Positions 1 to 31,256 of a stretch of 31,256 bases of DNA are shown here, in pieces. How positions within the stretch are numbered: position 1 is the first letter of the stretch; the number at the start of each line of letters is the position of its first letter. Under the pieces are notes generated by a model. That model saw only the letters and a program-made list of their open reading frames with translations, was not told the origin of the DNA and did no database searches. The position numbers and the translations under genes are program-made. Source of the DNA: a virus; the IMG/VR virus record IMGVR_UViG_3300021093_000248, positions 1 to 31,256 of that record; one strand, 5' to 3'.

Positions 1-412
1 CCTAAGGGGGTGAGCTTCAAGGGGAGGCCGCCTGCGTACTACTGCGCCAAGGCAGAAAAAGTTCCAGGATTTATCTCTCTCACGCGGGGGGACTCGGGTA
101 AATCCACCGGAAAACTCGAAACTCCTGTCCTGGAGCGGGATTTGAGTTTTCCGAAAGGTACCGGAAAAGTCCAGTTTCGGAAAAGTCCTGACCCTGGTTC
201 GGTAGCGGATACGGCGGACGAGACGCATGGGACGCAGAACGAGCCAGGGACTTTTCCGAAAGGGGACTTTTCCGAAAGCCACCGGAAAACTCAAACACCT
301 TGCGCCGCAAGCAATTTCGAGTTTTCCGGTGACCCCCGTGTGAATAGGGTTTTGCCCGTGGAACCGGCAACCAAGTCGACCTTCGAGGAGGCTGCCGCGT
401 TCTGGGATTAAA
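1..412. other. Left-edge region without a convincing gene
   Basis: Open frames exist on both strands here: plus strand from the window edge to a stop at 411, and minus strand 80-370. Neither translates to a recognisable domain. Both are dominated by peptides generated from the TTTTCCG DNA repeats (for example FPKG repeated on the plus strand). The plus frame has no well-spaced ribosome binding site. The plus frame could be the end of a gene starting outside the window, but I read the stretch as non-coding or regulatory. Confidence 0.4.
108..331. repeat. Array of eight TTTTCCG/CGGAAAA elements (iteron-like)
   Basis: Eight copies of TTTTCCG or its complement lie in about 224 bp, near 108, 147, 162, 178, 251, 267, 282 and 321. 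Two are a perfect 16-bp tandem, GGGACTTTTCCGAAAG at 247-262 and 263-278. Others form inverted pairs: CACCGGAAAACTC at 280-292 against GAGTTTTCCGGTG at 319-331, and 144-158 against 161-172. Clustered direct and inverted short repeats next to early genes are typical of replication origins or multi-site operators. The function is inferred; the repeats are directly visible. Confidence 0.7.
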
Positions 413-450: not shown

Positions 451-459
451 AGCACTAAA

Positions 460-480
460 AAGGCCCCAGACCGGGGCCTT
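460..480. terminator. Hairpin terminator, probably bidirectional
   Basis: An 8-bp perfect stem pairs 460-467 (AAGGCCCC) with 473-480 (GGGGCCTT) around a 5-nt loop. A run of A before it gives a T tract on the minus strand, so termination should be better for leftward transcripts; rightward it is followed only by CTTTGGTGTTT. It sits between the promoter at 437 and the gene at 513, so it could also act as a leader hairpin or attenuator. Confidence 0.65.
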
Positions 481-512
481 CTTTGGTGTTTCCCCCGAAA
501 CACAAATTTATT

Positions 513-28700: not shown

Positions 28701-29771
28701 TTAGGTAATCGTTGCGCCAACGTCGTCGACACCTGCGGGAGAGAGATTTACCCATGCGCTTCCTGTGTAACCCTCGAAGCAGCCGGCGGTTGTGTTGAAA
28801 CGGATCATGCCGGTGGCTGGAATGCCAGGGCGTTGGGCGGTGGTGCCAGTTGGAGCTTGGATGTATTGGTTGGTGGTGTAAAAGGTGCTGTTGAGGGAGA
28901 CAACACCACTAGATACGGAGATTCCAGTGCCGGCCGTTACGGTGGCGTTACTGCCGGCGGGGCCTTGGGGGCCGGTATCTCCTGTAGGGCCTTGAATACC
29001 TTGAGGGCCTTGATCGCCTGTATCGCCTTTATCTCCTTTGTCGCCTTTAGGACCAGTAGCGCCGGTTGGACCTGTGGCGCCAGTTGGACCTTGATCACCT
29101 TGGGGACCGGGATCGCCTTGAGGACCTTGGGCGCCGGTTGCACCAGTGGGGCCGGCTGGACCTGTGGGACCGGTGGCGCCGGTTAAACCTTGAGGACCGG
29201 TATCGCCTTGAGGACCGATAGCACCAGCTGGACCGGTTTCGCCTTGGGGGCCGGCAGGACCGGTTAGGCCGATGGGACCCTGGTCGCCTTGTGGACCTTG
29301 TGGGCCTTGGGAACCGGTCGCTCCGGTGGGGCCGGCGGGGCCAGTTTCACCTTGAGGACCGATTGCTCCTGTTGATCCAGCTGGACCTGCAGGACCGGCG
29401 GGACCAATCGCGCCAGTGGGACCGGTAGGACCAGTGGGACCTGTTGGGCCGGCGAGGCCTGCAGGTCCTTGTGGACCGGCAGGACCGGCAGTTCCATCGC
29501 CGAGGTTGCCGCCGATTGTGAGTTGAGTCGTACGGATACGACCCTGCATGTCCTTGGTGCCGAGTGCAACGGGTTCGGCAGGCCAACCACTGCTGGATTT
29601 GGGGCCGTATAGCTGTTTGGTGCGGCGGTCGATGTACCAGTCGCCGCTGTTGCCTGTGTCGCCGGGGGGACCGTCGCCAGATAGCAACGTGGTGAGGTTT
29701 TTGAGTTTTTTGCTAAGTTTGACGAGTGCGGTGACTTGGGCCAGCGTCAGGTAATCCTGTTTGGTGGCCAT
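28701..29771 (-). CDS. Collagen-like fibre protein, 356 aa
   Basis: Residues 1-35 are a helical N-terminus ([20 protein letters not shown]), then [16 protein letters not shown], a short motif often found before phage collagen-like shafts. About 61 Gly-X-Y triplets follow (residues 91-273), rich in Pro, Thr and Ala plus KGDKGDKGD. The C-terminal head has [16 protein letters not shown] and [12 protein letters not shown], the module also present in the fibre at 13583. Expected trimeric, probably an adhesive fibre on the head or neck. Placement between portal and scaffold is unusual. Confidence 0.88.
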
Positions 29772-29775
29772 TGCG

Positions 29776-31256
29776 TCAACCCATCATTGCTTGAATCAGT
29801 CTCTCTACCTGATCGGTAGAAAGTCCTTCGCGTTCTTCCTCTGTGGCTTCCTCTTCGGCGGATTCAGGGGCTTCGGAAAACTCGTCCTCGCCGTTAAGCA
29901 TTGACATTCCAGACGAGAGGATTTCGCCTTGGCGGAGGATGTCGCGGAACTCTTCGCGGTCGATGACTTGTTGCGCGAACAAGGCCGTCAGAGCCGTAAT
30001 GTCTTGGCCGATGAGGCGATCGATGTCGAAGTCGCGGCTGACGTAGACCTTGGGGGGTTCCAGTTGGAGGTAGGCGGCGGCGAGGTTGAAGGCGCCTTGG
30101 AGGGTTTGCTGGAGATCTAGGGAGACCATGGACAGCATGGAGTTGGTGTCGACGCGATCAAGGCGGCGGGCATCGGCAGATTCGGCGACAAATTTTTGCT
30201 GGCTCAGAGTGCTGATGCCGAGCGTCGCCATCTGCATCTGGAGTTCTTTGATTTCGGAGGATTGGGCCTCGAAAGCACTTGATGCAGGCTCCACGTAATA
30301 AGCCTTGTTGCCGGGCTGCATCGCCAACGCATAATTAACGCTGATAGCAAGGTCCTTGGTCTGGTCGTCCCAGCCTTCGAGGACGAGCATGGGTTGGCTG
30401 GCGACATGGAGGCTATGAATGAGGTCGGCTTGGCGCTGGAAGTGGGCCAGGTTTAGGTAGGCAATGTCCAGCAGAGGCGGTTTGCTTACCAGGGTGTCGA
30501 CTTTGTTGGAATACAGGGTGACTAGGGGGATTTCGCCGAGGCTGTACGAGCCAGATTCGATCAGTTCGTAGTCGCCGCCGGTGGGGCCGGTGATGTTGAA
30601 GGAGTTGGGGTACGGCATTTGTCCGTACATGTCCTTGCGGCTTTCCTGCTGGCGGTAGATCTCGTAGCGGCCGGGCTCGATGACGCGGACTTGGTCGTAC
30701 ACCTTTTCGCCGAAGCGGCCGTCGGGGACGATGGCTTTTTCGGCAATGCGAATCTGGATCAGCTTGCCGTAGTTGACCTCGCGGTCCAAACGCCAACCGT
30801 AGACGTTTTGGGGTTCGACCTCGATCCAGTAGGGGCGGCGGTTAAGGGCGCGTTCCTCGGCGAGGCTGCGGGCTCCGGTTGGGGCGGGGAAATCGACCAG
30901 CGTGTGGCAGTGGCCGTAGGTCAGCGCGCAGATCAGGAGGCGGCGGGCGTACTCATCAAGGTCGGAGCCACAGCCGTCGACGTCCTTGGCGAAAATTTCG
31001 CTCCAGTAGGGGTCGCCTTCGAGGACGATCGGTTTGCGGAGGACCAGACCGGCGGCGGCACGCACCAGACGTTGGGTGAAGGGAGAGAAGACGGCGCGGT
31101 TGACGCGGGCCAGGTAGGCCGTGTAGTCCTCGCGGGGTTCTAGGGGGAGGAAGGTTTCGCTGTTTTCGCGCAGGTATTCGGTGCCGAGGGTGACGGCTTT
31201 CATGATTTCCCAGCCGCGCATCATGTCCAGCACGGCGCGGGTCCGCGAGAACGGTG
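29776..31256 (-). CDS. Portal protein (DUF4055-like), partial
   Basis: The dodecameric ring through which DNA enters and leaves the head. The frame is open to the window edge ([18 protein letters not shown]), so the 5' end is missing; the visible part is about 493 codons. Patterns include [60 protein letters not shown] and [20 protein letters not shown], like DUF4055-type portals, with an acidic C-terminus. The next gene outside the window would be expected to be terminase. Confidence 0.8.

Follow-up and report, generated by a model that had tools for sequence, protein, structure and literature searches.

A mirror-symmetric array of short repeats within a viral primase-helicase gene is a probable recognition region of a phage replication origin

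The window analyzed here, i.e., the whole stretch of 31,256 nt, is an incomplete virus record that starts within a gene. Its positions 1..411 (plus strand) hold the 3' end of a primase-helicase (PH) gene cut by the contig end, with 95% amino acid identity to residues 703-838 of the L005 protein (tblastn). In the relatives L005, L086 and L087, the frame seen at 10-411 extends upstream to proteins of 833-838 (about 835) amino acids, encoded by the full genes L005:1777-4293, L086:1829-4330 and L087:1339-3846. The repeat array at 108-328 thus lies inside a gene, since ORF 10-411 represents the terminal part of a longer frame that the contig end interrupts. The window starts at the same homologous base as two other contigs (L003:1, L010:1) and further contigs continue upstream; this shared start may be an assembly break common to the samples.

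Directly after the PH stop, the inverted repeat I10 provides a hairpin (AAAAAGGCCCC/GGGGCCTTCTT, 457..483, plus strand), which is, judged by its sequence, a possible terminator. The early genes begin at 513, in agreement with the original prediction, which had placed the array just upstream of the early cluster. Just downstream of the array lies an AT-rich ORF of no known family (513-1310, about 36-46% GC). Since L086 holds an HNH endonuclease gene in the same slot (L086:4439-5137), the slot is apparently a hot spot for insertions. At the far end of the window, a collagen-like Gly-X-Y repeat protein is encoded on the minus strand (28701-29771), next to a DUF4055 portal gene (29776-31233). The nearest annotated phage of the portal is cyanophage S-2L (37.5%), and the marine single-cell virus AG-345-A17 matches it with 85.7% over 38% of the protein, which suggests a cyanobacterial host. 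S-2L was discarded as a comparison for the array, as its PrimPol is unrelated and no array was found in it.

PH is composed, in this order, of Prim-Pol, PriCT-2, a RepA-like helicase, a C-terminal winged helix and a disordered tail. Pfam matches were obtained for PriCT_2 (2.3e-15) and AAA_25 (5.1e-17), and the Prim-Pol match is weak (3.7e-4, just below the cut-off). The ATPase part of the full-length model resembles RSF1010 RepA and DnaB. The C-terminal domain is modeled as a winged helix with residue 680 within its third helix (H3); here, we claim the fold class alone, because the Foldseek result had no E-value below 0.001. In the AlphaFold2 model of the full PH, some 100 residues of very low confidence form the tail, after which comes a C-terminal helix. 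The array is carried by the codons of the disordered tail (61..354, plus strand; residues ~723-820 of L006/L005, pLDDT under 50), while the codons of the C-terminal helix lie beyond it (361..405, plus strand; residues 823-837, with W837 near-invariant). The winged helix is absent from the window, and its recognition helix was read from relatives, with 95% amino acid identity in the tail.

The array consists of eight exact TTTTCCG elements on both strands, namely elements 1 (108..114, minus), 2 (147..153, plus), 3 (162..168, minus), 4 (178..184, minus), 5 (252..258, plus), 6 (268..274, plus), 7 (283..289, minus) and 8 (322..328, plus). We could confirm these eight elements in both orientations as well as the exact tandem and the inverted pair of the original prediction. 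That is, GGGACTTTTCCGAAAG is found in exact copies at 247 and 263 (with elements 5 and 6 in copies 1 and 2), and CACCGGAAAACTC (280-292) and GAGTTTTCCGGTG (319-331) are inverted copies of each other. Its statement that the array is far denser than chance is borne out, too: the entire 31-kb window shows 18 TTTTCCG compared to 6.3 expected from dinucleotide shuffles, such that eight within 221 nt are far beyond chance.

We also compared the element centers of both halves, i.e., 111-, 150+, 165- and 181- with 255+, 271+, 286- and 325+. All centers pair with one of opposite strand (111/325, 150/286, 165/271, 181/255) and every pair sums to 436. The two halves of the array therefore mirror each other exactly around position 218, on opposite strands. 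Its left arm (105..188, plus; inverted repeat I1, 84 nt, 76% complementary) and its right arm (248..331, minus; 84 nt) hold four elements each, the latter mirroring the former. The spacer around the dyad center (189..247) has 59 nt and 64% GC and shows no AT-rich melting region.

Since the array stretch is translated, one may ask whether the codons of a repetitive protein tail give rise to the DNA repeats. The original prediction had seen no gene that explains the array, and had named as its refutation a translated frame 10-411 whose codons do so. The array is inside the translated PH gene, so the first view does not hold as worded, but the PH codons give no account of the repeats. The elements encode differing peptides, fall in two frames and both orientations, and eight copies were never reached in 100 synonymous-codon shuffles. 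When the window is compared with L005, L087 and L086, all 56 element positions are invariant, whereas 62/171 interleaved ones vary; for third codon positions, the numbers of variable sites are 0/20 and 29/56, respectively. On these grounds we reject an origin of the repeats at the protein level, to which we assign a negligible probability.

To study the array across the PH family, we gathered 113 PH homologues with stop codon, of which 110 tails formed 49 clusters at 90% identity. The same elements occur in L005, L086 and L087, and in 39/49 clusters the dyad score exceeds those of all 20 synonymous shuffles of the own tail; a search of related genomes had been proposed as a check by the original prediction. 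The dyad center is located 165-205 nt upstream of the stop codon in all 39 clusters with a significant dyad. For 10/49 clusters, the dyad is weak or missing, i.e., not above the own shuffles, and the tails of L102 and L082 show no clear array, be it by loss or since the word is too degenerate to be detected. The top words reach 6-9 copies in the array region compared to 2-4 in other windows of the PH gene, and all six near-complete relatives have one such cluster per genome, located in the PH gene. The word itself differs between lineages (TTTTCCG, TTTGTCAAAAG, TTGGCAAAAG, TGTTCCG, and TGTCC followed by CA, CC, CG, A, G or T). An alignment of TTTTCCG to TGTCCG was dropped, since the orientation set by the mirror reads the word of the window as TTTCGGAAAAG, beside TTTGTCAAAAG in sister clades. 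Spacing inside the arms is constant per clade, while the spacer between the arms varies; in one clade, the site positions are 82.5/40.5/21.5 (L156), 93/51/32 (L112) and 111/69/50 (L105). Neither the array region nor PH had a match in the INPHARED phage collection, and none was found among the genome contigs.

The 229-nt array strand has a predicted fold of -75 kcal/mol (z -11.5), and stem-loops are located 3' of the Prim-Pol helicase gene in pRN1 and phage BIP-1 (PMC4234260). Both would fit an origin recognized by its structure, i.e., a cruciform or stem-loop as proposed for pRN1 (PMC4234260), where the repeats merely follow from the stem. For such an origin, a continuous stem should be conserved between the arms. 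We observe an arm-to-arm complementarity of 87% inside the sites compared to 42% between them, so what is conserved are the sites and not a continuous stem. Furthermore, several arrays have many copies of one orientation or no perfect dyad, and the identity of the word covaries with a residue of the recognition helix, as detailed below. Structural recognition is thus rather improbable.

To find the protein that reads the word, we used 171 pairs of relatives with at least 85% identity over residues 1-630 and scored which alignment columns change when the word changes. Residue 680 of PH, within H3 of the winged helix, ranks first among 430 columns with a phi of 0.86 (171 pairs, which are non-independent). 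It outranks even the PH columns that are encoded by the array itself. In automatically assigned classes, TGTCCC[C/G] goes along with K680 (9/9), TGTCCCA with R or S at 680 (18/18), TGTCCT with G680 (3/3), TGTCCA with Q, T or R at 680, and TGTCCG with E677 (4/4). On a tree computed without the winged helix, the word changes its class 16 times, and K680 and TGTCCC[C/G] change together in 5/5 independent pairs, for which the floor of the sign test is p=0.0625. As a comparison, we scored eight further proteins (the HTH protein, SSB, exonuclease, dCTP deaminase and four small neighbors), which show a phi of at most 0.40 compared to 0.77-0.86 for residue 680 in the same pairs. Because residue 680 covaries with the word and the eight other proteins do not, the sequence data strongly support PH as the putative binder of the array word.

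This differs from the original prediction, which had found no iteron-binding protein of a known type nearby and proposed four regulators as candidates: the gene of the likely binder contains the array and is truncated by the contig end. None of the four is likely. The zinc-ribbon protein (4075) is found near the array in 3/37 array-bearing relatives, and the ribbon-helix-helix type, of which the window has two, in 10/37; both were rejected, as most relatives lack them there. The HTH protein (2764) occurs in 33/37, yet none of its columns exceeds a phi of 0.25, compared to 0.80 for residue 680 in the same pairs.

Instead of being bound by the winged helix, the words might serve the Prim-Pol domain as template sites for primer start. 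Their common core GTC resembles known primase trinucleotides, e.g., that of T7 primase. For the pRN1 primase, the trinucleotide is GTG (PMC4234260). The covariation speaks against this, since changes of the word track residue 680 of the winged helix and no Prim-Pol column is among the top 15 for word change, which renders primer start sites highly improbable.

Covariation tells who binds and not for which purpose. The array could therefore be a multi-copy operator by which PH regulates itself, or a regulator the downstream genes, with no role as an origin. The early genes start right behind the array, and repeats bound by an initiator can repress, too. On the other hand, the array is about 300 nt from the stop and thus in the last part of a coding gene, away from the PH promoter, it is the sole such cluster in the near-complete relatives, the arrays of other phages are likewise found 3' of a primase-helicase gene, and the HTH protein, SSB and other genes show no covariation. 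We thus consider an operator unlikely, yet it is the most probable of the alternatives discussed here. A packaging or recombination site (pac, cos or att), in contrast, has next to no probability. Dense conserved inverted repeats do generally occur at such sites. Here, the array is within a replication gene with the portal at the far end of the window, and its surroundings showed neither an integrase nor a tRNA. The packaging option of the original prediction gains no support.

Among the three functions put forward originally, a replication origin is the one best supported. We read the array, from its sequence and that of its relatives, as probably being the region of multiple sites at which a phage replication origin is recognized. 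It would be placed within the gene of its own initiator PH, which would bind it. As expected for an iteron origin, copies of a short word are clustered at one locus per genome. The array-linked gene encodes a PH with a winged helix whose H3 residue covaries with the word, which makes PH a strong candidate for an initiator specific to this word. In the putative mechanism, the winged helix would read the short element via its recognition helix H3, and several PH copies would dock with their winged helices on each mirror arm. Docking would load helicase and primase onto the DNA at PH's own gene, presumably with one helicase ring per arm. The mirror symmetry suggests two rings and two forks.

A bidirectional origin would often flip the GC skew, which had been named as a check. 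In 6/6 near-complete relatives its sign is unchanged through the array, which gives no support for bidirectional replication; a unidirectional or later rolling mode would fit the one-signed skew. The skew is positive along nearly the whole strand (G001, G006, G007, G009, G012 and G013, i.e., L167-L184, as well as the window), though the structural genes of the window are mostly on the opposite strand, and it may result from unidirectional replication. We also screened for an AT-rich DNA unwinding element. The mean AT content at the center is 0.41 and no clear AT-rich bin is observed from -400 to +560, which, like the skew, speaks against a simple bidirectional origin. We thus state that the array would work like, rather than is, a classical origin of iterons and unwinding element.

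To assess how far such arrays extend, we scanned 2.9 million viral contigs by pattern alone, the pattern being three TTGTCCCA words with 10-bp spacing. This resulted in 32 loci, of which 19 are at the end of a homologous PH gene and 10 just 3' of a distant gene with clear Prim-Pol, PriCT-1 and AAA_25 where tested. For the loci L222, L226 and L232, no recognized primase-helicase is nearby. Ten matches of a TTTTCCG-pair pattern (L188-L191, L193-L197, L200) come without PH and were taken as chance. Another type of Prim-Pol/AAA_25 gene likewise has word arrays immediately at its 3' side (L203:7020-8921, L206:38-751, L214:5674-7674, L234-L237, L239), several of them with a central hairpin, e.g., ACACACCTATAGGTGTG.

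In named records, arrays directly 3' of a related gene were found for Idiomarinaceae phage 1N2-2 (8 CGGTACA), Alteromonas phage PB15 (8 TGGTTCA), Salicola phage CGphi29 (5 TGTCCCC), Rhizobium phage 16-3 (15 CGTGACA), Roseobacter phage CRP-811 (11 CTACAAA) and the environmental record MW202867 (8 TGGGACA). All six arrays were matched by 0/100 shuffles. No array was found for the PH2-like phages Nigel (Mycobacterium) and GB2A (Caulobacter). Given the named phages and the scan, the wider pattern is a primase-helicase gene followed by an array on its 3' side, from which the family of the window differs in that the reading frame runs through the array.

We tentatively go one step further, to a reading that we rate somewhat below even chances. 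This phage family may keep its origin within the disordered-tail codons of its own PH, with up to 8-10 sites in exact mirror arrangement. Each arm would be a rigid module on which one helicase ring lands, the spacer would vary in length, and initiator and word would co-evolve with one recognition-helix residue per base. If so, origin specificity would be predictable from sequence and would have been switched at least a dozen times (given the class changes on the tree). In uncultured phages, origins have seldom been pinpointed. An origin-like array is directly readable here at the PH 3' end in about a hundred sequences, along with a testable residue-to-base code and independent cases in isolated phages. 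This provides a natural data set of an initiator that changes its site while this site is locked in the initiator's codons, and the mirror serves as a symmetric template to study how replicative helicases are loaded in pairs. For mirror arrays inside the gene, motif turnover and residue-base covariation, we found no earlier report in the open-access literature.

Concerning the protein, PrimPol-PV1/PrimQH have a primase, PriCT, a RepA-type ATPase and a C-terminal winged helix, which is suspected in origin recognition (PMC5862659). PH follows this order with its PriCT_2 and AAA_25 matches, weak Prim-Pol, RSF1010 RepA fold and winged helix. The likeness is one of domain order; origin arrays or a covariation of motif and helix were not found in the passages covered. 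RSF1010 has a RepA-type hexameric helicase as ATPase, too, and an iteron origin (PMC4234260), but distributes the functions over three separate proteins which PH would combine in one chain. The pRN1 protein orf904 and phage BIP-1 show Prim-Pol, helicase and C-terminal winged helix with a putative stem-loop origin just 3' of the gene (PMC4234260). They differ by an SF3 helicase and a stem-loop origin without iterons, compared to the RepA-type helicase and word arrays here.

Concerning the location, RepA of PY54 and N15 is a primase-helicase. According to the title of a study cited in PMC10612081, the repA gene of PY54 suffices as a minimal replicon, so the origin should be within the initiator gene, as proposed here for PH. 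In PICI/SaPI, an AT-rich region on the 3' side of the Pri-Rep gene is flanked by two sets of iterons (PMC6092414). Two sets that flank a center at the 3' end of such a gene are common to both systems, but the PICI/SaPI origin is outside the gene and flanks an AT-rich region, while the array studied here is inside the ORF with a center of 64% GC. In phage lambda, the iterons lie within the initiator gene O (PMC5043065). The shared trait is that repeats bound (here: probably bound) by the initiator are inside the initiator's own gene, while no O family was among the PH Pfam matches. In the lambda origin, O dimers bind 19-bp repeats that adjoin one another next to an A+T-rich region, whereas the array has up to 8 short sites in one large mirror, no A+T-rich center and a primase-helicase as putative initiator. 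Together, the lambda origin in O, the PICI/SaPI iterons 3' of rep and PY54 repA are known precedents for the array described here.
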